Assembly: GCA_013204985.1 (NCBI GenBank)
Contig: JABMLG010000010.1
Span: 124,001 to 188,000, forward strand
Length of the DNA stretch: 64,000 nt
Direction: 5' to 3'
From: Microbacteriaceae bacterium VKM Ac-2855
Lineage (GTDB): Bacteria > Actinomycetota > Actinomycetes > Actinomycetales > Microbacteriaceae
A program made the translations under genes and the position numbers. Below are positions 21,593-39,122 of the stretch, one piece after another. Below the pieces are notes generated by a model, which saw only the letters and a program-made list of their open reading frames with translations, was not told the origin of the DNA and searched no databases. Within the stretch, counting starts at the first letter, position 1; each line of letters starts with the position of its first letter.

Positions 21593-21675
21593 GTCGATGT
21601 CGACGCCGACACGGTCGTGGTCGTGGTCGACGATCCTGCTGCCCGTACGGGTGGCGCCGTTACAAGGAGGACCAC

Positions 21676-23206: not shown

Positions 23207-23596
23207 TCACCCGTTTGTGGTGCCGGGGTCGTGCACCGACGCGAACTGATCTGCCTGGAAGGGTGGCGCTACGGAGCACAGCACACGCAGAGTGGTTGTG
23301 CCCGTGTTGCGCAGCTGGTGCAGTTCGCCGGGCGCGATGACGACCAGGCTGCCTGGCTGCACGGGCACGGCGACGCCCTCGACGATGACCTCGCCCTGAC
23401 CCTCGTGGACGAAGAAGCTCTCCTCCTGCTCGTCGTGGGTGTGCGGGTTGGACTCCGAACCGGCGGGCACCTCGCTCATTCCGACCCAGAGGAACGTCGC
23501 GGCGGTCGACCATGGGGTATGCAAGTGCTTGATCGTCCGCTCGTAGGGGGCCTCGAAGGAGGTGCCTTCGACGTTGTCGATGTGGGTGTTGTGCAT
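23207..23596 (-). CDS. Single-domain cupin protein, 129 aa
   Basis: A small beta-barrel protein with the two cupin motifs: NPHTHDEQEESFFVHEG (His-x-His, Glu) and PGELHQLRN (final His), giving a complete 3-His/1-Glu metal site. Start ATG 23596 lies 25 nt after the SDR stop, so it is the last gene of the leftward ABC/SMP-30 operon. Single cupins in such operons act as sugar isomerases, lyases or epimerases, or as sensors; which applies is not visible. Confidence 0.8.
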   Translation of the reverse strand: MHNTHIDNVEGTSFEAPYERTIKHLHTPWSTAATFLWVGMSEVPAGSESNPHTHDEQEESFFVHEGQGEVIVEGVAVPVQPGSLVVIAPGELHQLRNTGTTTLRVLCSVAPPFQADQFASVHDPGTTNG

Positions 23597-23621
23597 GGTG
23601 ATTCGCTCTCCAAGGTGGGTG

Positions 23622-24392: not shown

Positions 24393-25369
24393 GCGTTCGT
24401 CCCGCCGACGGCAGCCGGGGCCTCACCGAGGGCGCCCTTCAGTACGGAGAGCTGCTGGTACGCCCTGTTGCGGTAGGTCGCGACGTCTTCTGGATCCGCA
24501 CGGCTGATGGCGGTGAGGCCGCCACCGTGCTTGAGCCCGAGGTGGCCGTCCTCGACCAGGTCGGTCAGGTAGCGCGGAGGGGAGAAGGCGCTTCCCAGCG
24601 ATTTCTCGAGGGTCGCGTAGGTGTCTCGGTAGACGTCGAGACCGGCCATGTCGGCGATGGCCATCGGCCCGAAGACGGCGAGCCGGAAGCCGAAGCTGTT
24701 CGAGACCACGGCGTCGAGCTCGTCGGCGGTGACAAGTCCTTCTTCGACGAGTCGGCTCGACTCGCGGTGCAGCACGTACTGGAGGCGGTTGGCGATGAAC
24801 CCGGGAAGATCGGGGACGGTCACGGGTACCTTACCGATCCCTCGGATCAGCTCCGTTGCACGCGTAACAACGGACTCCGACGTCTCGGGGCCGGGAATGA
24901 TCTCGACGCCGGGGACGAACGGCGCGGGATTCATCCAATGCACCCCGAGGAACCGCTCGGGGTGTACCACTGACCGAGCGAGCTCGTGGATCGGGATGGC
25001 CGAGGTGTTGGAGGCGAGCACCGCGTCGTGCGCCGCCGCCGCGGAGAGCGCGGCGAAGACGGCCGCCTTGATGTCGGGTCGTTCACTGACGACCTCGGAG
25101 ATGTAGCTCACTCCCTCGGCTGCCGCTGCGATCGAGGGCGCGGCGCTCAAGCGTTCGGCGAGGACGTCGGGAGCATCCTCCGGATACAGACCGGCGGCGA
25201 CGAAGAGGCGCGCCTCGGCGATCAGCCGCTCGCGTCCTGCCGTGGCGAGGTCGGCCGTTGCGTCGGCCAGGGCGACGGAGTGGCCGGCGAGAGCGAAAGT
25301 GGCGGCAATTCCGCCGCCCATGTACCCGGCGCCTACAACGGCGACCGGGAGAGCGTTCGTGTTCGTCAT
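24389..25369 (-). CDS. 3-hydroxyacyl-CoA dehydrogenase-family enzyme, 326 aa
   Basis: The N-terminal Rossmann domain has GAGYMGGGIA; the catalytic-region motifs SNTSAIPIHEL and LGVHWMNPAPFVP are typical of the L-3-hydroxyacyl-CoA dehydrogenase and lambda-crystallin/L-gulonate 3-dehydrogenase superfamily, followed by the helical C-terminal domain (PGFIANRLQYVLHRE). It oxidises a 3-hydroxy group with NAD+. In this context the substrate may be a sugar acid or its CoA ester. Start ATG 25369 lies 5 nt after the SMP-30 stop, and its own stop overlaps the SDR start. The family does not tell acid from CoA ester by eye. Confidence 0.85.
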   Translation of the reverse strand: MTNTNALPVAVVGAGYMGGGIAATFALAGHSVALADATADLATAGRERLIAEARLFVAAGLYPEDAPDVLAERLSAAPSIAAAAEGVSYISEVVSERPDIKAAVFAALSAAAAHDAVLASNTSAIPIHELARSVVHPERFLGVHWMNPAPFVPGVEIIPGPETSESVVTRATELIRGIGKVPVTVPDLPGFIANRLQYVLHRESSRLVEEGLVTADELDAVVSNSFGFRLAVFGPMAIADMAGLDVYRDTYATLEKSLGSAFSPPRYLTDLVEDGHLGLKHGGGLTAISRADPEDVATYRNRAYQQLSVLKGALGEAPAAVGGTNA

Positions 25370-25374
25370 GTGAG

Positions 25375-26262
25375 TTAAGCTCCGAATCGGTTTTCGGGGA
25401 GCCCGGCGATGCCGAGTCCCCTGATGGCGAAGAGGCTGCCGGCCTGCACCGGGTCGCCGGGGAATCGCGGGAGCGGCGGTTTCGCCATGCTCGTCACGAA
25501 GAGGGTGTCGAGTTCGCGGCCGCCGAACATGACGCTGGTGACCTTGCTCACGGGCATGTCGATGATGCGGTCAACCGTTCCGTCGGGCGCATACCGGACG
25601 AGCTTGCCGTCGTACACGAGCGCGCTCCAGACGAACCCTTCGGAGTCGACGGTCGCGCCGTCGGCGGCACCACCACCAGTGGTGTCGACGGTCGCGAATG
25701 TGCGCCTCCCGGCCACAGTACCGGAGCGCTGATCGTAGTCGTAGGCCCAGATCTCGCCGGACCAGGTGTCCGCGAAATAGAGGGTCGCGCCGTCGGGCGA
25801 CCAGCAGGGGCCATTCGAGACGATGATCCCGGTGTCGAGCGTCCGCACACGGAAGTCGGTGTCGAGAACGTAGAGGGCGGCTGTTGCGCCGTCCTCCAGG
25901 CGATTCATCGACCCGACCACAAATCGACCGTGCCGGTCGACCTTGCCGTCATTGAGGCGGTTGTCGGGGAGGTCCGGTTCCGGATCGTGGATCAATGTGA
26001 CGTCGCCGGTCGCGAAGTCGAGCGTGTGGAAGCCGTTCTCGAGGGCGACGATCGCGCCTCCCCCGTCGGAGCGCACCGCGAGCGACCCGATCTCACCGGG
26101 AACGTCCCACGCCCTCACCTCGGATCCGTGCTCCGTGCAGCGGTAGACCCGACCACCCTTCGAGTCGACGAAGTACAGGCGATCGGTGTCGACGTCCCAC
26201 AAGGGGCCCTCGCCGAGGGAAGGTTTCACGTCGACGACGATGTCGATGGTCCAGGAGGTCAC
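25375..26262 (-). CDS. SMP-30/gluconolactonase-family lactonase, 295 aa
   Basis: Six-bladed propeller of the SMP-30/LRE family: LGEGPLWD with the metal-ligand Glu, DNRLNDGKVDRHGRFVVGSM with Asn and Asp ligands, and SNGPCWSPDGATLYFADT. It opens sugar lactones to aldonic acids using a divalent metal. The GTG start at 26262 gives the family's usual length; no upstream ATG matches the family. It follows the ABC transporter genes after a stable hairpin and is a paralogue of the protein at 52170-53063. Pairing with an SDR upstream of acid-processing enzymes suggests a sugar to lactone to aldonate sequence. Confidence 0.86.
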   Translation of the reverse strand: MTSWTIDIVVDVKPSLGEGPLWDVDTDRLYFVDSKGGRVYRCTEHGSEVRAWDVPGEIGSLAVRSDGGGAIVALENGFHTLDFATGDVTLIHDPEPDLPDNRLNDGKVDRHGRFVVGSMNRLEDGATAALYVLDTDFRVRTLDTGIIVSNGPCWSPDGATLYFADTWSGEIWAYDYDQRSGTVAGRRTFATVDTTGGGAADGATVDSEGFVWSALVYDGKLVRYAPDGTVDRIIDMPVSKVTSVMFGGRELDTLFVTSMAKPPLPRFPGDPVQAGSLFAIRGLGIAGLPENRFGA

Positions 26263-26348: not shown

Positions 26349-27446
26349 CTACTCCTTGATGGAGAGGAGCGTCTGGAGGTCGATGCCCGGAGTCCACTCG
26401 TCGCTGTACCAGTCGGCGAAGAAGCCGGCCGAGACGTCGCCCTCCGGATAGGTGTTGCAGCCGGCCTGGAGGTCTTCGATGGATCCGGTGGTGCACATTT
26501 TCAGATCCTCCTGGGGAACCCAGTCGAAGCCGATGTCGATGGTCGAGGGGAAGTCCTTCCCGTCGAGGGCCTGAACCGCCATGGCCAGTGCGGCAGCGCC
26601 CTGGTACGGCGGCGAACCGTAGGAGCCGCCCTTCAAACCCTTGTCAAGATACGCAGGGTCTTGCAGGCGCAGACGATACAGATTCTCTGCCTCTGCGATC
26701 ATGGGCACGTAGGGTCGGCCCGCCGCGTCGAATGCGTCCGGTACCGCGACACCGCCGACCTGCGCCCAGACGCCGTCGATGTTGTCGAACGCCGCGAGGA
26801 ATCGACTCATGCATTCACCGGCAGGACCTTGCGCCCAGTCGCCGGCGCACGAGTCGAGAACCGTGATCCCGCGTTTTTCGAAGACGGCCTTCGCTGCCGA
26901 GGTACGATCCTCGTCGACCGAGGTCCCGGCGACACCGGTGATCAGGACGACGTTGCCCGTATTCCCCATCAGATCCGAGAGATACTCGGCAGTGACTTTA
27001 CCCGCCTCCTTCTGATCAAAGGTGACGTTGTGCGCGCACGGTTCGGTCACGGAGGCGTCGTAGGTGAACATCTGGATACCGGCGTCGCAGCCCTGCTTGA
27101 TCACGTTGTTCAACGCGGTTGGCGAGATGGGATAAATGATGATCGCGTCATATTGCTTCGCGATCATCTGCTGGATCTGCGAGATCTGCGCCTGAGCGTC
27201 GGTCCCCGAGACGAAAGTGTCCACTTTGGCGACCTTGTCCTTCAGGGTGTCACTCTTTGCGGCCGCCAACACGAGGTTCTTGGCCTCGCCCTGCCAGTCA
27301 TTGCCCGAGTAGCTCATACTGAGGGCGACCGAGTACCCGTCGGCGCTGCCGCCGGCGGTCGTACCGGAACCGGCGCAGGCCGCGGTGCTCAGCAGGACGC
27401 CGGCTCCGATGACGGCCGCAAAGACCGTCCGTTTCTTGTAGTGCAT
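26349..27446 (-). CDS. Sugar ABC transporter substrate-binding lipoprotein, 365 aa
   Basis: Start ATG 27446 follows AAAGGAG at 6 nt. An N-terminal signal ends in a lipobox-like LLSTAAC, so the mature protein is probably a membrane-anchored lipoprotein. The body is a Peripla_BP_4/ribose-type binding protein (ALSMSYSGNDWQGEAKN at the start of the mature domain, YDAIIIYPISPTALN in the first lobe, GTSVDEDRT, then AALAMAVQALDG). It captures the sugar for the two permeases and ATPase encoded upstream. Cargo cannot be read from the sequence; context points to a monosaccharide fed to the lactonase and dehydrogenases. Confidence 0.88.
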   Translation of the reverse strand: MHYKKRTVFAAVIGAGVLLSTAACAGSGTTAGGSADGYSVALSMSYSGNDWQGEAKNLVLAAAKSDTLKDKVAKVDTFVSGTDAQAQISQIQQMIAKQYDAIIIYPISPTALNNVIKQGCDAGIQMFTYDASVTEPCAHNVTFDQKEAGKVTAEYLSDLMGNTGNVVLITGVAGTSVDEDRTSAAKAVFEKRGITVLDSCAGDWAQGPAGECMSRFLAAFDNIDGVWAQVGGVAVPDAFDAAGRPYVPMIAEAENLYRLRLQDPAYLDKGLKGGSYGSPPYQGAAALAMAVQALDGKDFPSTIDIGFDWVPQEDLKMCTTGSIEDLQAGCNTYPEGDVSAGFFADWYSDEWTPGIDLQTLLSIKE

Positions 27447-27478
27447 TCGTGTCTCCTTTGACAGATCGACGGGCGTCA

Positions 27479-28516
27479 TTACGCCGTCGGGGTCTTGCGG
27501 GTGCGCGGGCGGACGCCGATCTTCGCGACGATGACGGCGACGAGGATGACGACGCCCTGGGTGATGGTGCGAACGGCTTCGGGAAGCTGGAAGGTAGTCA
27601 GGACGGTGATCAGTGCGCTGAGAAGAAGCGCCCCTCCGAGCGTTCCGACGAAGTGACCCCGTCCGCCGGCGAACGACGCTCCTCCGAGAGCGACAACGGC
27701 GACGCTCGTCAGAAGGTATGGCTCACCCATGCCGAGATAGCTCTGCCCGGCGAGCCCGGAGAGCATGATGCCGGCGACCGACGCCGTGACGCCCGAGATG
27801 GCGTAGGCCGAGCCGATGACGAGCTGCGAGTGCACGCCGGCGAGGCGGGAGGCGGTCGGGTTGAGCCCGACGGCCTGTAACTCGCGGCCGAACCGGGTCT
27901 GTCGGTAGATGTAGCTGACGAGGACGGCGAGGACGATCAGTGCCGGGACGACGAGTGGAAGGCTCCCAGCGTCGCCGCGCATGAACGTTGAGACCGATGG
28001 GGGCGGACTTCCGGTGACGAGTCCGCCCGTCCAGCCGAGGGCCCCACCCTCGAGGATCGCCCCGACGGCCAGCGTCATTACGACGGGGTGGATGCCGAAC
28101 CGGGTGACGCCGAGCCCGTTGGCAGCGCCGAGCGCTGCCCCGAGCGCGAGGGCGACGACGAAGGCGAGCAGAGCGTTCGTGTCGTCTCCACGAGAGATGC
28201 TCGCGAAGACAATGGCGGAGGCGCTCATGATCCACGGGACCGAGAGGTCGATCCCACCGACGAAGATGACGGTCCCCTGTCCGAGGCCGGCGACGGCGGT
28301 GACCGCGGCGAGCACGACGATGGTTTGCGCGCTCGACACCTGGGCGAGGTTTGGTCGGACGATCAGGATGAAGACGAAGAGGAGGGCTAGGACGATCCAG
28401 ACGGCTATGACTGGGCCGCGCGCGGCTCCGAGGTCGAGAAGTCCCCTGCGACGAGGGCGTGCCGCCCGGTCCAGGGCGCCGTCGTTCGGTGGCGTTTGAC
28501 GGGCGACGATGCTCAT
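27479..28516 (-). CDS. Sugar ABC transporter permease, 345 aa
   Basis: RbsC-type inner-membrane permease (BPD_transp_2) with 8-10 hydrophobic segments and the family stretches FVGGIDLSVPWIM, NGLGVTRFGIHPVVMTL and ALGGASFAGGRGHFVGTLGG. ATG 28516 overlaps the stop of the preceding permease (ATGA). About 40 extra N-terminal residues, rich in Arg, precede the first membrane segment. It pairs with the next gene upstream to form the membrane channel. Confidence 0.88.
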   Translation of the reverse strand: MSIVARQTPPNDGALDRAARPRRRGLLDLGAARGPVIAVWIVLALLFVFILIVRPNLAQVSSAQTIVVLAAVTAVAGLGQGTVIFVGGIDLSVPWIMSASAIVFASISRGDDTNALLAFVVALALGAALGAANGLGVTRFGIHPVVMTLAVGAILEGGALGWTGGLVTGSPPPSVSTFMRGDAGSLPLVVPALIVLAVLVSYIYRQTRFGRELQAVGLNPTASRLAGVHSQLVIGSAYAISGVTASVAGIMLSGLAGQSYLGMGEPYLLTSVAVVALGGASFAGGRGHFVGTLGGALLLSALITVLTTFQLPEAVRTITQGVVILVAVIVAKIGVRPRTRKTPTA

Positions 28517-29520
28517 TGGAGGACTCCTACACTGAAGGATTCGGTGCGGCGGCGTCTCCGGACCATGCTCGAGAGGGCGGCCTGGGCGCCGAGAGCGACG
28601 AGCAGCAGCAGCCCGCGGGCGATCGTGCTCCAGAAGCTCGCGAAGCCGAGGACGAAGAGGACGTTGATGACGATCGTGACAGCGACGGCTCCGAGTACAG
28701 CGCCGATCACCGAACCCTGCCCGCCACCGAGGCGCAGCCCGCCGACGACGACGGCGGCGAACGCGGCGAGGAGGTATCCGGCTCCGAGCTGGGTGTCGCC
28801 GCCGGAGGTTTGCGAGGTGACCGCGACTCCGGCAAGGCCGTAGAGACCGCCGGCGATGCCGAACGTCGCGACCTTGACAAAACCGACCTTGACGCCGGAG
28901 TTGGCGGCCGCCTCGCGGTCACTACCGACGGCGAGCATCTCGGATCCGAATCGGGAGCGACGAAGCGCGATCCAGCCGACGATGACCAGCAGCAAGACGA
29001 GCAACCCCACGGGGATGCCGACAACGTCGCTGGTGATGAAGGCGAGGGGCGAGAAGCCCTCGACCGGGTCGATGCCTGCCGGCTGCGGCAGCAAAAGAAG
29101 TGCGAGCCCGGTTAGGACGAAGCCTGTCGCAAGCGTTACGACAACGGGCTCGAGGTCGAAGCGGTGCACAATCAGCCCGTTGACCACGCCTGAGAGCACG
29201 CCGACGAGAACGGCGATCACAATCCAGAGGAACTGAGTGCCGAGCGCCCCGCCGTAGTTGACGGTGACGAGGGCGTTGGTTATCGCGATGACACCGGCGG
29301 AGGACATGTCCAGGCCCCCGATCAATACAACGACGGCGAGCCCGGCCGCAGCCAGTGCGAGCGCGAGGCTTGCGTTGATGACGGTGTACTTCAGTTGGGA
29401 GGGGCTCAGTGCCGTCGGCGATGCGGATCCGTAGATCGTCATCAGGAGAAGGACGAACAGGAGCGGGACGGCCAGGCCGCTGTCGACGAGCTTCGCGCCG
29501 ACAGTGCGCACGGCCTTCAC
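28513..29520 (-). CDS. Sugar ABC transporter permease, 335 aa
   Basis: RbsC-type permease with VLIGGLDMSSAGVIAI, NGLIVHRFDLEPVVVTLATG and VGGLRLGGGQGSVIGA. GTG start at 29520 overlaps the ATPase stop as GTGA. It has the usual length and about ten membrane helices. With the downstream permease it probably forms a heterodimeric channel for the monosaccharide delivered by the lipoprotein at 26349-27446. Confidence 0.88.
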   Translation of the reverse strand: MKAVRTVGAKLVDSGLAVPLLFVLLLMTIYGSASPTALSPSQLKYTVINASLALALAAAGLAVVVLIGGLDMSSAGVIAITNALVTVNYGGALGTQFLWIVIAVLVGVLSGVVNGLIVHRFDLEPVVVTLATGFVLTGLALLLLPQPAGIDPVEGFSPLAFITSDVVGIPVGLLVLLLVIVGWIALRRSRFGSEMLAVGSDREAAANSGVKVGFVKVATFGIAGGLYGLAGVAVTSQTSGGDTQLGAGYLLAAFAAVVVGGLRLGGGQGSVIGAVLGAVAVTIVINVLFVLGFASFWSTIARGLLLLVALGAQAALSSMVRRRRRTESFSVGVLQ

Positions 29521-31031
29521 TGGACGACCCCGATCGCGGCGGTCATCAGGCTGGTCTCGTCGAGTTCGGCGCCGTGTCGTTCGGCGACGAGTCGACCTTT
29601 GTAGCAGACCAGAACGCGGTGGCAGACATTGACGAGCTCGGGGATCTCGGTCGAGTACATCAGCACTCCTTTTCCTGACCGGGCGTACCCGGTGATGAGC
29701 TTGTAGATCTCGTGCTTCGTACCGACGTCCACTCCGCGGGTGGGGTCGAAGAGCAGCAGGGCGTCGGTGTCTCCGGCCAGGGCCTTGGCGAAGACCACCT
29801 TCTGCTGATTGCCGCCGGAGAGGGATCGGACCGGATCGTCGATCTTGGCGGGGTCGACTTGGACCGAATGGAGCAGGGTCGAGACGACGGCCTGCTCCGC
29901 CTTGTCGCTCAACCCCAGGGCATTGCCGACACGACGCAGGATCGGCAACGAGACGTTCTTTCGGATGGTGAGGTCGAGGATCGCACCGTGTGTCTTGCGC
30001 TCTGCAGGCACGAGTGCGATCCCGCCCAGTCCTGGTGCGGGACGCAACGCCCGGGCCGGAGAGGTCAACTTCACCCTGCGTCCCATCAGCGTCACCTCGC
30101 CTTTGGTAATCGGTCGGTCACCGGAGAGAGCTTCAAAGATCTCGTTCTGGCCCTGGCCGTCGAGCCCGGCGATGCCGACGATCTCGCCCGCTTTGATCGA
30201 CAGTGAGACGTCGTCGAGCATCCCGCGGGTGCTGATCGAGCGGACGTCCAGGAGCACCTCGGCTTCGGGATCGAGCTCGGGCAAGGGCGGATAAGCCGAT
30301 TCGAGCGAGCGCCCGATCATCTGCTCGATCACCTTCTGCCGATCGAACGAGGCGCGCTGGACGTGATCGACGATCGTGCCGTTGCGCTGCACGTAGACCT
30401 CGTCGCAGAACCGCTCGATCTCGTCCAGCATGTGGGTGATGATGAGGACGGCCGACCCCTCGGCGATGACTGTGCGAATCACCGAATGCAGCCAGGCGAC
30501 ATCGGCCGGCAGCAGTGCGCTGGTGGGTTCGTCGAGCACGAGGACCCGGTGTGGCCGGTTGACCGCGCAGATGATCTCGGCGATCTGCTGGTCGCGGAGA
30601 GAAAGGGTGCTGACCCGGTTCTCGACGGCGATCCGACCGAGACCCCAGTTCGTCGCCACCTCCTGGGCGATCTCGGCGCGGTGCCGCGTGCTGGTGGACC
30701 AGCCGTTGCGGCTCTGCAACTGCACGTTCTCGGCGAGGCTGAGATCGGGGATGAGGCTCAGCTCCTGAAAAACGGTGCTGAGCCCGAGCGCTCGAGCTAC
30801 GTTCGGAGAGTCGATCGAGGTGACCACGCCATCGACGAGGATCTCGCCCTCGTCCGGCCGTACCGCTCCGCACATCGTCTTCACGAGGGTGGACTTGCCC
30901 GCCCCATTCTCGCCAACGAGGCCGTAAACGCGCCCGGGTTGGAGGGCGATCGAGATGCCGCGGAGCGCATGGGTGCGTCCGTACCTCTTGTGCACGTCCC
31001 GCATCTCCAGGAGTGGAGTCGCATCGTTCAT
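29517..31031 (-). CDS. Sugar ABC transporter ATPase, fused double domain, 504 aa
   Basis: Tandem ATPase of the ribose/xylose type. The first half has Walker A GENGAGKST (residues 40-48) and Walker B LVLDEPTSALL but an altered signature LSLRDQQ. The second half has the usual degenerate Walker A (GLDGQGQNE) and an intact LSGGNQQK signature. Start ATG 31031 follows GAGG at 7 nt; in-frame extensions upstream run through the regulatory region. It is the first gene of the leftward operon, which continues through two permeases, the binding protein, SMP-30 lactonase, hydroxyacyl-CoA-dehydrogenase-type enzyme, SDR and cupin. Confidence 0.9.
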   Translation of the reverse strand: MNDATPLLEMRDVHKRYGRTHALRGISIALQPGRVYGLVGENGAGKSTLVKTMCGAVRPDEGEILVDGVVTSIDSPNVARALGLSTVFQELSLIPDLSLAENVQLQSRNGWSTSTRHRAEIAQEVATNWGLGRIAVENRVSTLSLRDQQIAEIICAVNRPHRVLVLDEPTSALLPADVAWLHSVIRTVIAEGSAVLIITHMLDEIERFCDEVYVQRNGTIVDHVQRASFDRQKVIEQMIGRSLESAYPPLPELDPEAEVLLDVRSISTRGMLDDVSLSIKAGEIVGIAGLDGQGQNEIFEALSGDRPITKGEVTLMGRRVKLTSPARALRPAPGLGGIALVPAERKTHGAILDLTIRKNVSLPILRRVGNALGLSDKAEQAVVSTLLHSVQVDPAKIDDPVRSLSGGNQQKVVFAKALAGDTDALLLFDPTRGVDVGTKHEIYKLITGYARSGKGVLMYSTEIPELVNVCHRVLVCYKGRLVAERHGAELDETSLMTAAIGVVQ

Positions 31032-31163
31032 GGCGTGACCTCGGGTCCGATCTCGAGATCGGAGGATCATCGCAGAGGAGCGCTCGGCGCCCCTCTTCCT
31101 GATGCGGTCCTCATCGACCTCTGTCTGTGGGTGGGTGAGTTCACCTTGCGCGCCTCTTGCCGC

Positions 31164-31179
31164 GTTAAGCAACGTTCAG
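31164..31179. promoter_or_regulatory. LacI operator copy 1 (transporter side)
   Basis: Read on the minus strand this is CTGAACGTTGCTTAAC, matching copy 2 at 14 of 16 positions. TTGCTT within it is followed 18 nt later by CAAGGT, a possible -35/-10 pair for the leftward ABC operon. Confidence 0.6.
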
Positions 31180-31223: not shown

Positions 31224-31239
31224 CTTAACGTTGCTGAAC
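31224..31239. promoter_or_regulatory. LacI operator copy 2 (regulator side)
   Basis: CTTAACGTTGCTGAAC, centred on AACGTT. Copies 1 and 2 face each other in the gap between divergent operons, an arrangement typical of LacI repressor/autorepressor sites. Confidence 0.65.
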
Positions 31240-31260: not shown

Positions 31261-31293
31261 GATCCCACATTCACCAACGGAGGTGTGACAGCG

Positions 31294-32352
31294 ATGGTCG
31301 GGATCGACTCGGAAGCCGTAGTGCCCCAGCGTCAGCCCCGGGTTTCGGCGGCCTCGGTCGCTCGGGCCGCCGGCGTCTCGCCGGCGGCGGTCTCGTACGT
31401 CTTCAACGATCGGCCCGGTGTTTCGGCCGAGACTCGAGCGCTTGTGCGTGATGCGGCGAAGTCGCTCGGATTCACCCCTTCCCGCCCGACCGCGCCGGTC
31501 AGAGCCCACATTGTGGGACTCATCCTCTCGAACGTTGCCAACCCCTTCTATCCGGAGTTGTCGGTCGGGTTCTCTGAGGCTGCCCGGAGCCGCGGCTACC
31601 AGGTTTTCCTCTCACACACCGATGACGACCAGGAGTCACTTACGCAGTCCATTGCGGCGATGCTCGACCGCTCGGTAGACGGGATTGCTGTCGCCGTCGC
31701 CCGCTCGGACAATGCCAGCGCGGTCCGCCAGATGCGTCGCGCTCACGTCCCGATGGTCCAGATATCGCGCACTTTCCAGCACGTCGACGCCGACTTCGTC
31801 GGAATCGACGACCGCGGTGCCGCCGTCGCGATGATGAGACACGCGCTCGCGCACCATCGTTGGCCGATTGCAACGGTCATCGGCCCGCGCGCCTCCTCCG
31901 CTTCGGCCGAACGCGAAGCGGGTTTCGTCTCCGCAGCTCGGGACGCCGGGATCGTCATTCCGGGGCCGATGCGGGTGAGCGTGCCCCTGACGCTCCAGGG
32001 CGGTCGCGCGGCGGCCGAGCATCTCTTCTCGCTCCCACAGCCTCCGCGTTTCGTCCTCTGCGGGAGCGACATCCTCGCGTTCGGCGTGATGAGCCACGCA
32101 CTCGAGCTTGGCCTCCGGATTCCGGAGGACGTGGCTCTCTCTGGCTTCGACGGTATCGAAATGGCGAGCACTCCGATGATCGACCTCACCGGGATCGTGC
32201 AGCCCAGACGTGCGATGTCGGCCACCGCTCTCGAACTCCTGGCTGATCGCATCGAGCACGGCCAGCACTCCACCATGCAACGCCACGTCCGACACACCAT
32301 CCGCGTAGGGCGGACTTGCGGCTGCACCTCGAAAGGAAGATCGGACTCATGA
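31294..32352 (+). CDS. LacI-family regulator of the divergent sugar-acid operons, 352 aa
   Basis: ATG 31294 has GGAGG 10 nt upstream; GTG 31285 is too close to it. The HTH is about residues 18-37 (SAASVARAAGVSPAAVSYVF), the hinge SLGFTPSR follows, then a periplasmic-binding-protein-like effector domain (about 70-335) with LSGFDGIEMASTPMIDLT. It is the first gene of the rightward operon, its stop overlapping the SDR start as ATGA, so the regulator is made together with the pathway it is likely to control. Probably binds the three CTTAACGTTGCT-type sites. The effector is presumably the pathway sugar acid. Confidence 0.88.
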   Translation: MVGIDSEAVVPQRQPRVSAASVARAAGVSPAAVSYVFNDRPGVSAETRALVRDAAKSLGFTPSRPTAPVRAHIVGLILSNVANPFYPELSVGFSEAARSRGYQVFLSHTDDDQESLTQSIAAMLDRSVDGIAVAVARSDNASAVRQMRRAHVPMVQISRTFQHVDADFVGIDDRGAAVAMMRHALAHHRWPIATVIGPRASSASAEREAGFVSAARDAGIVIPGPMRVSVPLTLQGGRAAAEHLFSLPQPPRFVLCGSDILAFGVMSHALELGLRIPEDVALSGFDGIEMASTPMIDLTGIVQPRRAMSATALELLADRIEHGQHSTMQRHVRHTIRVGRTCGCTSKGRSDS

Positions 32353-33077
32353 CAACCACTCAGAAGATCGCATTGGTCACTGGAGCCGCTCGCGGGATCG
32401 GGGCCGCAATCGCCGGCGTCCTTGCCGAGCGCGGCTTCCGCGTCGTCCTCGCCGACGTCGACGCCGCACAGGCCTCGGCTACGGCCGCCGCCCTGGGCGA
32501 GGGACACGAAGGAATCGCCCTGAACGTCGCCGACAGCGCGCAGGTCGACGCGGCGGTCGACGGTGTCGTCGAACGGCACGGACAACTGCACGTCGTTGTG
32601 AACAACGCAGGGATCAACCGCGACGCAATGCTGCACAAGATGACCGACCAGCAGTGGGACCAGGTGCTCGCCGTCGACCTTTCCGCAGTCTTCTACGTCA
32701 GCCGCGCAGCCGCGCGGCACATGCGGCAGACCGGCTACGGCCGCATCGTCAACATCTCCTCCGCCTCGTGGGAGGGCAATATCGGTCAGGCGAACTATGC
32801 CGCCGCAAAGGCTGGCGTCCTCGGCTTGACCTTCACGCTGGCGCGGGAGCTTGCGCGGTCTCAGGTGACGGCGAACGCCATCTGCCCCGGCTTCATCGAC
32901 ACCGAAATGACCCGTGGGATCCCGGAGGCGGTCCACGCCGCGCAGATCGCCAAGATCCCGCTCGGTTATGCAGGGGACCCCACCGAGGTGGGCAAGGCCG
33001 TCGCGTTCTTCGCGAGCGACGACGCCTCGTATCTCACCGGTCAGGTGCTCGAAGTGGGCGGCGGGTACCGCATATGA
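32349..33077 (+). CDS. SDR oxidoreductase, FabG/3-hydroxyacyl-CoA type, 242 aa
   Basis: Closest by eye to FabG/PhaB-type enzymes: TGAARGIG, NNAGINRDAMLHKMT, Ser in NISSASW, YAAAKAG and the C-terminal YLTGQVLEVGGGY. These oxidise or reduce the 3-hydroxyl of acyl thioesters. ATG 32349 overlaps the regulator stop (ATGA) and has AAAGGAAG upstream. Lying between the regulator and a CoA-transferase, it fits oxidation of a 3-hydroxyacyl-CoA (or free 3-hydroxy acid) to the 3-keto form, the substrate needed by the thiolase two genes on. Confidence 0.87.
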   Translation: MTTTQKIALVTGAARGIGAAIAGVLAERGFRVVLADVDAAQASATAAALGEGHEGIALNVADSAQVDAAVDGVVERHGQLHVVVNNAGINRDAMLHKMTDQQWDQVLAVDLSAVFYVSRAAARHMRQTGYGRIVNISSASWEGNIGQANYAAAKAGVLGLTFTLARELARSQVTANAICPGFIDTEMTRGIPEAVHAAQIAKIPLGYAGDPTEVGKAVAFFASDDASYLTGQVLEVGGGYRI

Positions 33078-34555
33078 GAATATCGCTCGTAAGTGCGGCC
33101 GACGCGGCCGCGCTGATCGGCGACGGCCGCACCGTCGGTCTCGACGGCTTCACGATGATGGGCGTTGCGGACGAGATCTACGCGGCCATCCAAGCCTCCT
33201 ACTCCGCTACCGGGTCGCCGGCCGACCTTACGATCGTGCATCCGGCCGGGCAGTCCAACCGCGAGGTCGGTCTCGAACGCTTCGCCGAGCCCGGACTCGT
33301 GAAGCGCATCGTCGGATCGCACTGGGGCCTCGCCCCACGGCTAGGCACTCTGATCAACGACGACGGCGTCGAAGGGATTTGCCTGCCACAGGGGCAGCTT
33401 TCCAACCTGCTCCGCGCCATCGCGGCCGGGCGCCCAGGCAATCTCAGCCGCGTTGGGCTCGGCACCTTCGTGGACCCCACCCTGGAGGGAGGCCGAGTCA
33501 ACTCCCGCGCTCGCAACGCCGTCGCCCCGACGGAATACGTCGACCGGCTGAACATCCTCGGCGAGGACTTCCTGCTCTACAAATCCTTCCCGATCGACGT
33601 GGCGATCATCCGGGCCACTCGCGCGGATCGCAGCGGAAACGTGGCTCAAGGTGACGAAGCGGCTGGTCTCGACGCCCTCGCCCTCGCTCAGGCCACCCGC
33701 AACTCTGGTGGGATCGTGCTCTGCCAGGTGAAGGAGATCGTCGAGATCGGCGACATACACGCCCGTGACGTCACCGTTCCGGCGAATCTGATCGACCACG
33801 TCGTCCTCACCACCGACGCCGAGCGGTACCACCGGCAGAGCGACTCGGTGGCCCAAGAGTCCGGTCTCACGAGCGGTGTGATCTCGGCAGAGGCTCTCAC
33901 AGTCGCGCTCGAGGCGAAGCCGATCGATCCGCTTCGGCTCGCCATCGGTCTGCGCGGCGCGGCACTCGTCCGCTCGGGCGACGTGATCAACGTCGGCACA
34001 GGTATTCCGGGCGATACCGTGGGTCCCGCACTCGCCGAGCTCGGGATCCTGCCGTCCGTGACGATGTCGATCGAATCCGGCGTCTACGGAGGAGTGCCGA
34101 TGGGAGGCACCGATTTCGGTGCCTCCCTCCACCCGAGCGCCATCATCGGCCACAGCGCGCAGTTCGACTTCTACACCGGCGGAGGCGTGGACATCGCCTT
34201 CATGGGCGTCGGGCAGGTTGCTCCGCTGGGCGACGTGAACGTCTCCAAGCTTGGCGGACGCCTGATCGGCTGCGGCGGGTTCATCGACATCCTGAGCGGG
34301 GCGCGGCGCATCTGTTTCCTTATGTCCGCGCGCGGCCGGCATCCGAAGTTCGTCGACGTGGTCGACCACTTGACGTTCAACGGGCAGGAAGCGCTCGCAA
34401 ACGGACAGGAGGTCTACCTCGCCACCGAGGACTTCACTCTTGCTCTCACCGAGGCTGGCTGGGTCGTGCACAGCAGCGTCGACTCCGACGCGGTACGAAA
34501 GCTTCTCGCCAACCTTCCAGTCCTCCCGACGCTTGAGCCGAGCACCCGCTCGTGA
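33074..34555 (+). CDS. Acyl-CoA:carboxylate CoA-transferase (YdiF/propionate CoA-transferase type), 493 aa
   Basis: Family I CoA-transferase with both halves in one chain. The N-terminal half opens with DGRTVGLDGF; the C-terminal half carries the catalytic Glu334 in IESGVYGG, at nearly the same position as in E. coli YdiF. It moves CoA from a donor such as acetyl-CoA to a carboxylic acid through a glutamyl-CoA intermediate. ATG 33074 overlaps the SDR stop (ATGA). A CoA-transferase next to a thiolase and a glycerate kinase points to activation of a polyhydroxy acid rather than a fatty acid. Confidence 0.88.
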   Translation: MRISLVSAADAAALIGDGRTVGLDGFTMMGVADEIYAAIQASYSATGSPADLTIVHPAGQSNREVGLERFAEPGLVKRIVGSHWGLAPRLGTLINDDGVEGICLPQGQLSNLLRAIAAGRPGNLSRVGLGTFVDPTLEGGRVNSRARNAVAPTEYVDRLNILGEDFLLYKSFPIDVAIIRATRADRSGNVAQGDEAAGLDALALAQATRNSGGIVLCQVKEIVEIGDIHARDVTVPANLIDHVVLTTDAERYHRQSDSVAQESGLTSGVISAEALTVALEAKPIDPLRLAIGLRGAALVRSGDVINVGTGIPGDTVGPALAELGILPSVTMSIESGVYGGVPMGGTDFGASLHPSAIIGHSAQFDFYTGGGVDIAFMGVGQVAPLGDVNVSKLGGRLIGCGGFIDILSGARRICFLMSARGRHPKFVDVVDHLTFNGQEALANGQEVYLATEDFTLALTEAGWVVHSSVDSDAVRKLLANLPVLPTLEPSTRS

Positions 34556-34595
34556 GTTCCCTCAGCGCTATTCGCCACCAGCCAAGGATCACGCC

Positions 34596-35777
34596 ATGCC
34601 AGTAAATGATCGAGTCGTCATCATCGAAGGAGCCCGCACCGCCGTCGGCTCCTTCGGCGGGGCTTTCGCCTCTGTCCCCGCTTATGAACTCGGTGCTGTC
34701 GCCGTCACCGAGGCGGTGAGACGCGCGGGCCTGGACATCACCGACATCGAGGAGTTCGTCCTCGGCTGCGTCGGCCAGGTCGGCCCCGACGCATTCATCG
34801 CCCGCCGCGTCGCGCTGCAGGCGGGCGCCGATAAGTCATCGACGGCGATGACGGTGAACCGGCTCTGCGGGTCCGGTCTACAGTCGATCGCATCGGCGGC
34901 GCATGAGCTGAGCGACGGCGACGCGTCTCTCGTCGTCGCCGGGGGCGTCGAGAACATGACCCGTCAACCGTTTATGGACTTCGACGCACGCAACGGCTAT
35001 CGGCTCGGCCACCACACCCTTGTCGACGGAACGCTCTCGTTGGTCACTGACCCCTGGGGCGATTACCCGATGGGCCGGACCGCCGAGAACGTCGCTGAGC
35101 GCTTCCGCGTCTCGCGGCAGGAGCAGGACGAGTTCGCGGCCGAGAGCCAGCGACGCGCGGCAGTCGCGCAGGCCGAAGGCCTTGTTGATGCCGAGATCGC
35201 ACCGGTCACGATCAGCAACCGCAAGGGCGATACCGTCGTATCGACCGATGAGCACCCGCGCGCGACCACGCTCGAGAAGCTCGCGGCGCTGCGCCCGGCG
35301 TTCAGTAAGACGGGATCGGTGACGGCCGGGAACTCGTCCGGCATCAACGACGCCGCCGCGGCAGTCGTCCTGGCTCTTGAAAGCACAGCCGATCTGAAAG
35401 GGCTTCCCAAGTTGGGCGAGTTCGTGGCCTTCACCAAGGTCGGCCTCGCGCCGGAGATCATGGGGTACGCCCCCGTGCACGCCATCAGTAAGGTCCTCGA
35501 TAAGGCAGGGCTCACGCTCTCCGACCTCGGCTGGATCGAGCTCAACGAGGCGTTCGCCTCGCAAGCAGTGGCTGTCCAGCGCGACGCCGGACTCGACCCG
35601 GCTCTCGTCAATCCGCTTGGAGGCGCGATCGCCTGGGGCCACCCGGTAGGGGCAACCGGCACGATCCTCACACTGCGCACCCTGTATAACCTGCGCCGCA
35701 CCGGGCGCGAGTTCGGGCTCGTCACGATGTGCATCGGCGGCGGCCAGGCCGTCGCCGCCATCGTACGAGCGTTCTGA
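34596..35777 (+). CDS. Thiolase (acetyl-CoA acetyltransferase family), 393 aa
   Basis: Complete catalytic set: nucleophile Cys91 in NRLCGSGLQ, His349 in WGHPVGATG and Cys379 in CIGGGQ. Length and motifs are those of degradative thiolases, which cleave 3-ketoacyl-CoA with free CoA to acetyl-CoA plus a shortened acyl-CoA. ATG 34596 has AAGGA 7 nt upstream. It follows the CoA-transferase by 40 nt and immediately precedes a glycerate kinase, which suggests that the shortened product is glyceryl-CoA. Confidence 0.9.
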   Translation: MPVNDRVVIIEGARTAVGSFGGAFASVPAYELGAVAVTEAVRRAGLDITDIEEFVLGCVGQVGPDAFIARRVALQAGADKSSTAMTVNRLCGSGLQSIASAAHELSDGDASLVVAGGVENMTRQPFMDFDARNGYRLGHHTLVDGTLSLVTDPWGDYPMGRTAENVAERFRVSRQEQDEFAAESQRRAAVAQAEGLVDAEIAPVTISNRKGDTVVSTDEHPRATTLEKLAALRPAFSKTGSVTAGNSSGINDAAAAVVLALESTADLKGLPKLGEFVAFTKVGLAPEIMGYAPVHAISKVLDKAGLTLSDLGWIELNEAFASQAVAVQRDAGLDPALVNPLGGAIAWGHPVGATGTILTLRTLYNLRRTGREFGLVTMCIGGGQAVAAIVRAF

Positions 35778-35866
35778 CGATGTTCGACCCGCCCGCATCC
35801 GATTCCGACCGGTCCGATTCGGCGGTCTGCGGGTTCTCGCCGTCGTGGGGGGAGGAGCCGTTTCGG

Positions 35867-37036
35867 GTGGTCCTCGCGTTCGACAGCTTCAAGGGTTCGC
35901 TTTCGGCGGCGGACGCGTGTGCTTCCGCCGCCACGGCGATCGCTGCGCGCTTCGGCTCATCCGTCGAGACCACGAGCTCGCCGATGGCCGACGGCGGCGA
36001 GGGCAGCCTCGATCTCCTTGGTCTCGGCGGGCGATCCCGGATCGTCACGCTGATGACGACCGACGCGATCGAGCGCCCACTTCGTGCCGAGTACTTCCTC
36101 GAGGAGGGTAGCGCTACGGCCCACATCGAGGTCGCTCGGATCTGCGGACTGACCCTGGTAGCTGACGTCCCGCTCCGACCTCTCGCGGCGACGACCTACG
36201 GCGTGGGGATCGTCGCGGCGCACGCGCTCGAAGCCGGGGCACGACGGATCGTGCTCTACCTCGGAGGAACCGCCTCGACCGACGCCGGAAAAGGAATGTT
36301 GATGGCGCTTGGCGTGCGGTTCGACGATGCTCACGGTGACACTCTCGCGCCCGGTGGAGGGTCGCTGGTAGCGCTCGCCAGCATCGAGTATTCCGACCTG
36401 CTCCCTGCCGCGCGGGCAGCTCGCTGGACAATGGTCACTGACGTCGACGCGCCTTTGACCGGACCAACCGGTGCCGCACAGTGCTACGCCGCCCAGAAGG
36501 GCGCGAGCGCGACGCAGATCGACGTGCTCGAACGTTCGATCGAGCACGCTGGGGCCGTCGTCGCCCAACAGACGGGGCGACCCGTCGGCGATCGGCCGGG
36601 AACAGGGGCGGCCGGTGGCCTCGCCGCTTTCGCTGACGCGCTGCTGGACGTCGAGTTCGTCCGAGGCAGCGACTTCTTCGCCGAGCTCACCGAGCTACCA
36701 GAGGCGATCGCCCGAGCGGACCTCGTCCTCACGGGCGAGGGCCGGTTCGACGCTCAGTCACTCGACGGCAAGGTCGTCGGTACCGTCGCCGCGCTCGCAC
36801 GCGCCGCGCCGAACGGCCCGCCGGTCGTCGTCCTCGCCGGATCGGTCGATAGAGCCGCTCTTCCTGTCGACTCCGGCGTCGCAGCCGCCTTCTCGCTCGC
36901 CGACGGGCCGGCCTTGCTGGCCGAGCTCACCAGGGATGCCGCGCCGCTGCTCGGGTCCAAGGCCGTCGCCGCGGTCGCGCTCGCGCTCAGCATGAACGAC
37001 CGCTTAGCGGACGCCGCCGTTGCCCTCACGTCATGA
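35867..37036 (+). CDS. Glycerate kinase, type I, 389 aa
   Basis: Phosphorylates glycerate with ATP. Motifs of the GarK/GlxK family: FDSFKGSLSA at the N-terminus, MADGGEGSLD, the glycine-rich LGGTASTDAGKGML and GTGAAGGLA, and LTGEGRFDAQSLDGK. GTG 35867 is preferred because GGAGGAG lies 9 nt upstream and VVLAFDSFKG is where the family normally begins; ATG 35780 would add 29 residues of unlike sequence and has no clear ribosome site. Its stop overlaps the thioesterase start (ATGA). Glycerate kinase in a CoA-transferase/thiolase operon is the strongest clue to the pathway product. Confidence 0.88.
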   Translation: MVLAFDSFKGSLSAADACASAATAIAARFGSSVETTSSPMADGGEGSLDLLGLGGRSRIVTLMTTDAIERPLRAEYFLEEGSATAHIEVARICGLTLVADVPLRPLAATTYGVGIVAAHALEAGARRIVLYLGGTASTDAGKGMLMALGVRFDDAHGDTLAPGGGSLVALASIEYSDLLPAARAARWTMVTDVDAPLTGPTGAAQCYAAQKGASATQIDVLERSIEHAGAVVAQQTGRPVGDRPGTGAAGGLAAFADALLDVEFVRGSDFFAELTELPEAIARADLVLTGEGRFDAQSLDGKVVGTVAALARAAPNGPPVVVLAGSVDRAALPVDSGVAAAFSLADGPALLAELTRDAAPLLGSKAVAAVALALSMNDRLADAAVALTS

Positions 37037-37476
37037 GCGCCGAGATCCGGTTCCACACCCGGAAATGGGTGCGCCCGGAAGATCTGAACGCGAACGGTTC
37101 ACTCTTCGGCGGGAGCCTGCTGCGATGGATCGATGAAGAGGCGACCATCTACGCGATTCTGCAACTGGGCAATCGTAGCGTGGTGACCAAATACATCTCT
37201 GAGATCGACTTCGTCAGTTCGGCGCGACAGGGTGACCTGGTCGAAATGGGGCTCCGAGCCACCGTCTTCGGGCGGACGTCTCTCACGATGCGGGCCGAAG
37301 TCAGAAACATGATCACCGGATCCCTCATCCTTTCGATCGAGAGAATCGTCTTCGTCAACCTCGGCGGCGATGGCCGGCCCGCGCTACACGGGTTCACGGA
37401 CACGACCTTCCACCGCGACCGCTTCGCTGAACCCGCGGAAAGCGCGGCAGTCACCACCCCTCTATCCGCCACTTAA
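37033..37476 (+). CDS. Hotdog-fold acyl-CoA thioesterase, 147 aa
   Basis: YciA/BACH-type single hotdog domain: RPEDLNANGSLFGG (with the NxxGxxxGG element), WIDEEATIYA and VTKYISEIDFVSSARQGD. It hydrolyses acyl-CoA to free acid and CoA. ATG 37033 overlaps the glycerate kinase stop (ATGA), so the two proteins are made together. In this setting hydrolysis of glyceryl-CoA to glycerate, the kinase substrate, is the natural inference. Its stop codon is followed at once by operator copy 3. Confidence 0.85.
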   Translation: MSAEIRFHTRKWVRPEDLNANGSLFGGSLLRWIDEEATIYAILQLGNRSVVTKYISEIDFVSSARQGDLVEMGLRATVFGRTSLTMRAEVRNMITGSLILSIERIVFVNLGGDGRPALHGFTDTTFHRDRFAEPAESAAVTTPLSAT

Positions 37477-37508
37477 CGTTGCTCACGATCAATCGCTGAA
37501 CCTACGAT
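37472..37508 (+). promoter_or_regulatory. LacI operator copy 3 and promoter of the ACS transporter
   Basis: CTTAACGTTGCT (37472-37483) repeats operator copy 2 exactly over 12 bp. TTGCTC (37479-37484), 18 nt and TACGAT (37503-37508) repeat the -35/-10 geometry of 31231-31260. A leader of about 260 nt follows before the transporter ATG, with no gene seen in it. Confidence 0.6.
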
Positions 37509-37769
37509 CTTCGCATAAGCAAAACCCTCAATGGGGAGGTTCAGAACAGCTTTACAACCATCGGCAATAACTTTACTTCTCTTTTCCTCCTCCGGCGTCT
37601 CGCTGGACGCCTTACCGCGATGCCACTGCTCATTCGGGGGCATTTCCGGAGACCGGCTCCGTCTCATCATCGGGTATTTCGCCGTCAACGACGGCGCGGT
37701 ATTGCTCTTACTTCATCGGCGGCGCTCAGAGTTGACCCGTGCTCCGGATCCGCCAGAAAGGAACTCCTT

Positions 37770-39122
37770 ATGGGAATCTTCCACGTCATTACGGGCGCTC
37801 CTCCGCTGTCCGCAACCAATAAACGCATCTTCGTCAGACTCATGCCTTTGCTGATGCTGTGCTATTTCATGTCCTTTCTTGATCGGACAAACATCGGACT
37901 CGCCAAGGAACGGCTCGAAATCGATCTCGGGATCACTGCGGCCGCGTACGGCCTTGGCGCTGGGCTCTTCTTCCTCGCCTATGCGGTCTTCGAGATCCCC
38001 AGCAATCTCATCCTCGCCCGAGTTGGCGCTCGGTGGTGGATCTTCCGGATCATGATCACGTGGGGGCTGCTCTCCGCTGCCATGGCGTTCGTGCAGGGAG
38101 AGACGTCGTTCTACATCATGCGGATCCTTCTCGGCATCGCGGAGGCCGGTCTCTTCCCAGGGATCATGCTCTACATGACCTACTGGTTCCGTACTGACAT
38201 TCGACCGCGCGCGATAGGGATGTTCCTCATCGCGGTCTGCTTCTCGTCGATCGTCGGCGCCCCGCTAGGCGGCGCGCTTCTGCAACTCGACGGAGTCGGA
38301 GGGTTGCACGGCTGGCAATGGATGTTCATCGTTGAAGGTCTGCCCACCGTGATCCTGGCATTCTTCGTGCTGAGGTACCTCCCGGATCGCCCGTCAGCGG
38401 CTCGCTGGCTTACCAGCGCCGAATCGAGTCGCCTTGAGTCGGATCTCGCTGCGGAGCAGAAGGCTGGTGCCGACGCGTCGGGCGTGCACTCGTTCGGAGC
38501 AGCGCTGAAGGATCGGCAGATGTTGCTGGTCATTGCCATCTACTGGTGCCATCAAGTTGCGATCTACTCGCTGATCTATTTTCTCCCCGCGATCATCGGC
38601 CAAGGGATGACGCTGACGCCCCTGCAAGTCGGGCTCCTCACGGCGATCCCCTGGGTCGCCGCCGCCATCGGTGCCCTCGTGGGACCCCCTCGGGCAACGA
38701 CGCCGCGCCGCTCGCGCAATCTGGTATCTCTGGGTCTGGTGGGCATGTTCGCCGGATTTCTCGTTGGCTCACTGGCCGGCCCGATCATCGGACTGATCGG
38801 CTTTTCGTTCGCGGCATTCTTCCTCTTCATCGTGCAGCCGCCACTCTTCACGCTCCCCGCCACGCGGATGGCCGGCGCGGCACTCGCCGGAGGCCTGGGC
38901 CTACTCAACACGATCGGCATCACGGGCGGCTTCGTCGGCCCCTACGCGATGGGGTTGGCCGAGGACGTCACCGGAGTTGCGAAGTCCGGTCTCTGGCTCA
39001 GCATGGTTCTCGTCCTCGTCGGCGCCGTCCTGGCTCGGTTCCTGCGGTTCGGATCTGTGGAGGCTCGAGCGGACTCCTCGACGCATCCCCAGGTGTCGGC
39101 GCCGACCGGATCCCTCTCCTAA
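37770..39122 (+). CDS. MFS transporter, anion:cation symporter (ACS) type, 450 aa
   Basis: Twelve predicted membrane segments with the ACS hallmark FLDRTNIGLAK in helix 1, FEIPSNLILARVGARWWI, and GIAEAGLFPGIMLYMTYWF in helices 4-5. ACS carriers import organic anions such as sugar acids, tartrate or phthalate with protons. ATG 37770 has AAAGGA 7 nt upstream; a start at 37620 would add a basic, non-family leader. It has its own promoter with operator copy 3, so it belongs to the LacI regulon. It probably takes up the aldonate directly, in parallel with the ABC transporter for the parent sugar. Confidence 0.88.
   Translation: MGIFHVITGAPPLSATNKRIFVRLMPLLMLCYFMSFLDRTNIGLAKERLEIDLGITAAAYGLGAGLFFLAYAVFEIPSNLILARVGARWWIFRIMITWGLLSAAMAFVQGETSFYIMRILLGIAEAGLFPGIMLYMTYWFRTDIRPRAIGMFLIAVCFSSIVGAPLGGALLQLDGVGGLHGWQWMFIVEGLPTVILAFFVLRYLPDRPSAARWLTSAESSRLESDLAAEQKAGADASGVHSFGAALKDRQMLLVIAIYWCHQVAIYSLIYFLPAIIGQGMTLTPLQVGLLTAIPWVAAAIGALVGPPRATTPRRSRNLVSLGLVGMFAGFLVGSLAGPIIGLIGFSFAAFFLFIVQPPLFTLPATRMAGAALAGGLGLLNTIGITGGFVGPYAMGLAEDVTGVAKSGLWLSMVLVLVGAVLARFLRFGSVEARADSSTHPQVSAPTGSLS

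Follow-up and report, generated by a model that had tools for sequence, protein, structure and literature searches.

Why should an operon for a CoA-transferase, a FabG-type dehydrogenase and a thiolase also contain a glycerate kinase, an enzyme which implies a three-carbon acid as product? The question is raised by 64,000 nt from the 4.7 Mb genome of Microbacteriaceae bacterium VKM Ac-2855 (JABMLG010000010.1, positions 124,001-188,000), the window in the following. On its forward strand the genes for a LacI-family regulator, a short-chain dehydrogenase/reductase (SDR), the CoA-transferase, the thiolase, the kinase and a hotdog thioesterase form a tightly packed run with gaps of 40 bp (CoA-transferase/thiolase) and 2 bp (thiolase/kinase). 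The start of an anion:cation symporter (ACS) carrier gene lies 293 bp past the thioesterase, after an operator-like site. A preliminary description had assigned seven of these genes to the catabolism of a 2-deoxyaldonate; all are in place, as are Glu334 of the CoA-transferase and Cys91, His349 and Cys379 of the thiolase. The operon it delimited (31285..39122) is real, yet the system is wider: a second, divergent operon (31034-23207), which had been missed, encodes an ATP-binding cassette (ABC) importer, a lactonase, a 3-hydroxyacyl-CoA dehydrogenase family protein (HAD), a second SDR (SDR2) and a cupin. We consider it probable that both halves form one divergon under LacI control, which would degrade a five-carbon 2-deoxyaldonate through CoA thioesters. 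The simplest candidate substrates are 2-deoxy-D-ribonate together with its lactone, and perhaps deoxyribose as well. The gene set, the protein families, their catalytic residues, a conserved neighbourhood, a shared operator-like motif and the kinship with deoxyribonate clusters are observed; from these we infer every reaction, the regulation and the substrate.

Passages of Price et al. (2019; PMC6365646) describe deoxyribonate as a waste and DNA-damage product and report two bacterial routes, both proposed to yield glyceryl-CoA. They confirm the acyl-CoA route in Klebsiella to which the preliminary description had referred: in K. michiganensis M5al the genes BWI76_RS23695-RS23730 are important on deoxyribonate by mutant fitness. 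They encode a CoA-synthetase, a CoA-transferase, a hydroxyacyl-CoA dehydrogenase, a thiolase, a major facilitator superfamily (MFS) carrier, a lactonase, a further MFS carrier and a glycerate kinase, and the proposed route runs from deoxyribonyl-CoA via ketodeoxyribonyl-CoA to glyceryl-CoA (PMC6365646). Our comparison was made via the cluster of K. pneumoniae CP125156, which has like genes in the order of the K. michiganensis locus tags; the equivalence rests on gene order, the sequence compared being that of K. pneumoniae. Six proteins of the window match this cluster (Table 1). The lactonase is 60% identical to its Klebsiella counterpart, against 38% for the window's other SMP-30 gene, and the SDR reaches 54%, against 28-43% for 30 other matches from its own genome. 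A further copy of the Klebsiella cluster resides on the K. pneumoniae plasmid pJNQH373-1 (IncFIB/IncHI1B), where ISKpn1 lies between thiolase and carrier (L036 12589-13952).

The SDR also carries the residues common to the cluster SDRs, N90, H96, W141, C179 and G237. This signature was derived from 63 'cluster' rows versus 37, with L035 (the K. pneumoniae cluster), L075, L089 and L090 standing as one row, and it is partly circular because the group was partly defined by at least 50% identity. The two PDB entries that match the window SDR best, 6t6n and 7tzp, hold the Klebsiella cluster SDR under the name 3-oxoacyl-ACP reductase. As this protein is nearly identical to the SDR at L035 11596-12330, its PDB name may mislead. 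With the 3-hydroxybutyrate dehydrogenase model NF009093 the window SDR scores 189 bits, below the cut-off of 258.

How widely is this gene combination conserved? The best 80 CoA-transferase matches in named genomes correspond to 78 distinct loci, which are related to each other and of which 17 are shorter than 15 kb; 10 control loci were hand-picked from matches without that neighbourhood. Within 10 kb an SDR of at least 50% identity is present in 66 of the 78 loci, a thiolase in 65, a CoA-synthetase in 43, a glycerate kinase in 27, a HAD in 25, a second CoA-transferase in 11 and a thioesterase-like protein in 2. The controls contain two glycerate kinases and none of the others. SDR, thiolase and kinase occur together in 26/78 loci versus 0/10 controls. 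Leucobacter celer has kept both halves of the system, with lactonase, SDR2, cupin and HAD slightly reordered, and Microbacterium ureisolvens has the order LacI-SDR-CoA-transferase-thiolase-kinase on a contig which stops 3.7 kb past the kinase. These are orthologous loci of the kind for which the preliminary description had suggested a search; the thioesterase is absent from both. Nocardia amamiensis has LacI-SDR-CoA-transferase-thiolase and no kinase. In the Chloroflexi loci L043-L047 neither thiolase nor kinase was found; most end shortly after the CoA-transferase, but L044 and L047 continue. Among the 15 genomes of the genus the operon thiolase is found in its own genome only, the next best match being 44% identical, which makes the cluster a probable accessory gain. 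The thiolase search covered all 15 genomes, that for the CoA-transferase a selection of them.

At the thresholds used, a second CoA-transferase and a CoA-synthetase are mutually exclusive (synthetase in 0/11 versus 43/67 loci; Fisher p 5e-5, uncorrected for relatedness), as if they replaced one another. Two loci blur this exclusion: L057 combines two transferases with a synthetase-like match of 25% identity, L094 a synthetase with an edge-cut transferase fragment. The actinobacterial loci have one CoA-transferase and no CoA-synthetase. As the window's cluster shows neither a synthetase nor a second transferase, its single CoA-transferase would have to activate the acid.

The groups of genes are further joined by an operator-like motif, which stands before all three of them. 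The exact CTTAACGTTGCT occurs twice in the whole genome, before LacI (31224) and before the carrier gene, and a one-mismatch copy on the strand of the ABC operon shares the gap with the LacI-side site. The window holds three sites with at most one mismatch to the 11-base core versus 0.16 expected, a number reached in 1 of 100 shuffles. Leucobacter and Microbacterium also have the core ahead of LacI, as does Nocardia with one change; among the loci scanned it is absent from the Jiangella locus L051 and the Chloroflexi loci L043-L047. LacI may well control the cluster through this motif.

Does the chemistry then concern a sugar acid at all? CoA-transferase, SDR and thiolase are just the set required by a 3-hydroxybutyrate/acetoacetate or short-chain fatty acid pathway, the best models for thiolase and SDR are BktB and FabG, and the kinase by itself is not enriched over the controls; it might be a chance neighbour. 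Yet such a pathway does not account for a lactonase, a sugar ABC importer and a sugar-acid carrier tied by one motif, for the joint occurrence of SDR, thiolase and kinase in the loci, or for an SDR whose closest PDB entry is the deoxyribonate-cluster enzyme. We consider it very improbable.

The deoxyaldonate assignment has to be weighed against a number of adverse findings. NCBIfam names the SDR FabG (306 bits, cut-off 296). The thiolase, with its catalytic residues confirmed and BktB as best model, is 48% identical to that of Klebsiella, little over the genus background of 44%. The Klebsiella CoA-synthetase has no match among the window's open reading frames, and for the second Klebsiella carrier, MFS2, the best match is 23% identical (gene at 20136-21473). 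Genome-wide, with one mismatch allowed, there are 8 sites of the operator-like motif versus 11 of a reversed control pattern. Rarity by count was therefore dropped as an argument, and weight is given to the two exact sites alone, both of which lie in the cluster. The glycerate kinase neighbourhood was dropped as stand-alone proof, as its frequencies in loci (27/78) and controls (2/10) do not differ significantly (Fisher p 0.49).

In the CoA-transferase, Glu334 lines up with the motif Glu of YdiF, and the enzyme resembles the YdiF-type single-chain CoA-transferases (PDB 2ahu) in sequence family and in the Glu of an ETG/ESG motif. Its descent supplies further adverse findings. In a FastTree phylogeny the window row falls into a clade of 14 rows from Leucobacter, Microbacterium, Nocardia, Jiangella and Chloroflexi. 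The tree is unrooted, and at a single node this clade joins two others, one of 12 rows with the 9 controls and one of 70 rows from Klebsiella and Bacillota. A midpoint root served for drawing only, L075, L089 and L090, which nearly duplicate the Klebsiella cluster, were left out, and long-branch and composition warnings include the window row. Moreover, nine control transferases are 42-46% identical to that of Klebsiella, versus 41% for that of the window. This tree speaks neither for nor against orthology with the Klebsiella enzyme, and the Pfam family fits; possibly the pathway was assembled from different CoA-transferase lineages.

The second described route is oxidative and employs a beta-keto acid cleavage enzyme (BKACE); passages of PMC6365646 report it for Pseudomonas simiae, Paraburkholderia bryophila and Burkholderia phytofirmans. 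In the genome studied here this route is ruled out by 0 matches to BKACE (PF05853), and at the thresholds used none was found in the window or the 78 CoA-transferase loci. The thiolase is therefore the sole clustered cleavage enzyme. The BKACE clusters are nonetheless informative. In a plasmid collection, 3 of 372 records contain lactonases of at least 60% identity (70-72%; Phyllobacterium, Rhizobium and Agrobacterium), each adjoining a BKACE gene, and these three Rhizobiales clusters (L153-L155) have an ABC importer, an SDR and a HAD in front. Of the five best records for the carrier two were opened, Burkholderia cenocepacia (58%) and Caballeronia NK8 (55%); in both, a BKACE gene of the same orientation precedes the carrier gene by 1 kb or less. 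Against this, four further opened regions have neither BKACE, judged by gene table or by comparison, nor this gene set: that of Pseudomonas oryzihabitans, with a 54% lactonase and a 52% carrier, that of Acinetobacter baumannii L161, where a 59% lactonase lies next to an MFS2-like gene, that of a Rhodococcus plasmid with a 52% carrier and that of Kozakia with a 54% lactonase. BKACE is thus present at 5 of the 9 opened places, the five closest ones.

Lactonase, SDR and carrier, 53-60% identical to those of Klebsiella, together with the lactonases and carriers beside BKACE genes, lend independent support to the five-carbon 2-deoxyaldonate class of the preliminary description and to its order of activation, C3 oxidation, thiolysis and glycerate phosphorylation. 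The substrate reading is, by comparison, well supported. In the proposed pathway sugar or lactone would enter through the ABC system, the acid through the ACS carrier. SDR2 may oxidize the sugar at C1, if the sugar is used, and the SMP-30 lactonase would open the lactone. With acetyl-CoA or glyceryl-CoA as CoA donor, the CoA-transferase would activate the acid; C3 would be oxidized by the FabG-type SDR, and the thiolase would yield acetyl-CoA and glyceryl-CoA. Glycerate would be freed by the CoA-transferase, with glyceryl-CoA as CoA donor and no ATP spent, in this strain also by a recruited thioesterase, and the kinase would direct it into glycolysis. The features are compiled in Table 1.

Table 1. 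Genes and operator-like sites of the proposed divergon (window positions; identities refer to the cluster of K. pneumoniae CP125156 and to Leucobacter counterparts)
Feature	Position	Strand	Klebsiella	Leucobacter	Further basis
Cupin-domain protein, last gene of divergent operon	23207..23602	-		76%	Pfam Cupin_2 3.9e-17
Second SDR (SDR2), suggested sugar C1-dehydrogenase	23622..24392	-		58%	NCBIfam SDR; SDR similarly placed in 3 Rhizobiales clusters
3-hydroxyacyl-CoA dehydrogenase family protein (HAD)	24389..25369	-		50%	NCBIfam, PDB
SMP-30 family lactonase, probable deoxyribonolactonase	25375..26262	-	60%		70-72% to three Rhizobiales BKACE-cluster lactonases; GTG start picked by eye
ABC importer substrate-binding protein (Rbs/Xyl type)	26349..27479	-		77%	NCBIfam
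ABC importer permease 1	27479..28516	-		68%	
ABC importer permease 2	28513..29520	-		64%	
ABC importer ATPase, two-domain sugar type	29517..31034	-		65%	NCBIfam
Operator-like site, one mismatch, TGAACGTTGCT	31168..31178	- (strand of ABC operon)			Motif scan
Operator-like site TTAACGTTGCT, before LacI	31225..31235	+			Motif scan; also upstream of LacI in relatives
LacI-family regulator	31285..32352	+		63%	Pfam LacI and Peripla_BP
FabG-type SDR, probable 3-hydroxyacyl-CoA (deoxyribonyl-CoA) dehydrogenase	32349..33077	+	54%		
Single-chain family I CoA-transferase, Glu334	33074..34555	+	41%	71%	Pfam CoA_trans; PDB YdiF; 70% Microbacterium
Degradative (BktB-like) thiolase, Cys91/His349/Cys379	34596..35777	+	48%		NCBIfam, Pfam, residues
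Glycerate kinase (GK-II, PF02595)	35780..37036	+	35%		TIGR00045 308 bits, cut-off 168; one of two PF02595 genes in the genome
Hotdog (4HBT) acyl-CoA thioesterase, Asp34, candidate glyceryl-CoA hydrolase	37033..37476	+			Pfam 4HBT; PDB acyl-CoA hydrolases
Operator-like site TTAACGTTGCT, before carrier gene	37473..37483	+			Motif scan
MFS carrier of the ACS family, probable deoxyribonate importer	37770..39122	+	53% (MFS1)		58, 55% to Burkholderia, Caballeronia carriers

Which role remains for the HAD? FabG-type enzymes act on hydroxyls in the D arrangement, as found at C3 of 2-deoxy-D-ribonate, and HAD-type enzymes on those in the L arrangement. For this reason we suggest that the HAD is a C3 dehydrogenase for the other (threo) epimer or for the free acid. 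HAD-family genes recur in Rhizobiales and Bacillota clusters. The actual substrate may thus be a different 3-hydroxy acid, i.e., an epimeric 2-deoxypentonate such as 2-deoxyxylonate, or a mixture in which HAD and SDR each take one C3 epimer. The presence of two dehydrogenase families for which opposite stereochemistry is expected, the HAD genes in 25 of the 78 loci and the Rhizobiales clusters with HAD plus SDR would agree with this, yet the Klebsiella cluster manages deoxyribonate with an SDR-type dehydrogenase alone. We regard a different epimer as rather unlikely and retain 2-deoxy-D-ribonate as the simplest substrate.

Less secure is the assignment of the thioesterase to the hydrolysis of glyceryl-CoA. 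A passage on deoxyribonate oxidation by the GapMind authors lists an 'unknown glyceryl-CoA hydrolase' (PMC9007349). The preliminary description placed the thioesterase here; by position it is a candidate, and in our judgement the chances for and against this assignment are about balanced. The ATGA overlap of kinase and thioesterase (37033), which had been adduced in its favour, is weak evidence on its own because it is one of three such overlaps in the operon (LacI/SDR, 32349; SDR/CoA-transferase, 33074). The distribution of the gene tells against a dedicated role. Neither the Leucobacter nor the Microbacterium locus contains a match to it, and one of the two thioesterase-like proteins in the 78 loci is encoded on the opposite strand. 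A second copy, 74% identical, is located on contig 25 of the same genome, and the gene is found in 82 of 398 genomes of the family, its own included (87 places). In 29 of these family loci, examined with flanks of about 1.5 kb or less, a glycerate kinase was adjacent in 0, a transaldolase in 4 and deoC in 1. Of seven other copies opened in the genus, six come after a transaldolase gene and the seventh (G592) precedes deoC; the latter, a 79% identical homolog, lies with deoC at L025 8839-10063. A PADLOC search with the thioesterase found nothing. As a conserved part of the pathway the thioesterase is ruled out by its frequency of 2/78 loci and by the absence of glycerate kinase from all 29 family loci.

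It may be a housekeeping enzyme for acyl-CoAs in general which came to lie in the operon, glycerate being freed solely by the CoA-transferase as it cycles CoA from glyceryl-CoA to the next acid. The actinobacterial loci with one CoA-transferase and no CoA-synthetase accord with such a cycle, as does the lack of the thioesterase in Leucobacter and Microbacterium, the latter on its short contig. This alternative for the same substrate is quite conceivable, if somewhat short of an even chance. On the other hand, the gene closes a coupled operon and overlaps the glycerate kinase, and two Rhizobiales clusters pair another hydrolase with another glycerate kinase. In the BKACE clusters of Rhizobium and Agrobacterium the gene after a MOFRL-type glycerate kinase encodes a member of the 3-hydroxyisobutyryl-CoA hydrolase (HIBCH) family (L154 17487-19857, L155 13392-15784). 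The two proteins score 445 and 426 bits with the family model (cut-off 274) and share 68% identity; of the 169 plasmid records with a match, all the remaining 167 fall below 60%. In the region of the Phyllobacterium cluster neither MOFRL kinase nor HIBCH-family hydrolase was seen. The HIBCH-family protein is a second, independent candidate for a glyceryl-CoA hydrolase. That two unrelated hydrolase families adjoin two unrelated glycerate kinases renders the hydrolysis step more credible, albeit in few cases.

The complete version of our proposal would be a LacI-regulated actinobacterial route from 2-deoxypentose or lactone to acetyl-CoA and glycerate with ATP-free activation by the CoA-transferase, in which the hotdog thioesterase was recruited as the missing hydrolase and the HIBCH-family protein of Rhizobiales filled the same gap independently. 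This version we put forward tentatively, as the less likely case; the deoxyaldonate divergon as such is probable.

Several neighbouring and related loci merit mention. In the window a set at 18224-22446, with a transketolase-like gene pair (named by eye), an MFS carrier, an opposite-strand SDR and a GntR-type regulator (17485-18147), is perhaps another sugar-acid system, and at 52170-57634 a further Rbs-like ABC importer accompanies the SMP-30 protein with 38% identity to the Klebsiella lactonase. Bacillota clusters contain a metallo-beta-lactamase-fold protein (L060 12403-13167, L058 7102-7860, L099 7160-7951, L109 5643-6443), which may stand in for the SMP-30 lactonase. A TRAP-type substrate-binding gene is present in L055, and LarA racemase genes in L053, L056, L057 and L110. 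Jiangella asiatica (L051 8191-12682) has LacI, CoA-transferase (54%) and thiolase (59%) without glycerate kinase. Nearby genes encode two amidohydrolases and a sugar-binding ABC protein, and the same chemistry may here serve a different acid.

In the open-licence literature searched, deoxyribonate and glyceryl-CoA are mentioned together in Price 2019 and GapMind 2022 alone, and neither an actinobacterial deoxyribonate cluster nor a named glyceryl-CoA hydrolase for the route was found, in agreement with the earlier statement that no actinobacterial version with a thioesterase has been described. The route itself is already known; new is an informative combination of ordinary enzymes, in which the link to the thioesterase is circumstantial. 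The acyl-CoA route for deoxyribonate would be extended to Actinomycetota, and the listed gap at glyceryl-CoA would gain three candidates, the hotdog thioesterase, the HIBCH-family protein of Rhizobiales and a CoA-transferase with glyceryl-CoA as donor.

How, finally, does the divergon relate to the known systems? With the Klebsiella cluster it shares CoA-transferase, FabG-type dehydrogenase, thiolase, MFS carrier, lactonase and glycerate kinase. It differs in the absence of a CoA-synthetase and of any close match to the second MFS carrier, in a CoA-transferase from a separate clade of the unrooted tree, in the addition of a sugar ABC importer, HAD, SDR2, cupin and thioesterase, and in its LacI regulator. 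With the BKACE route it has in common the lactonase, MFS carriers, C3 oxidation, glycerate kinase and the product glyceryl-CoA, yet the CoA thioester would be cleaved by the thiolase. The Rhizobiales clusters resemble it in the Rbs-type ABC importer, SDR, HAD and the closely related lactonase, two of the three also in a glycerate kinase plus a CoA-thioester hydrolase. They have BKACE in place of CoA-transferase and thiolase, however, their kinase is of the MOFRL type, their hydrolase belongs to the HIBCH family, and their HAD is just about 30% identical to that of the window.

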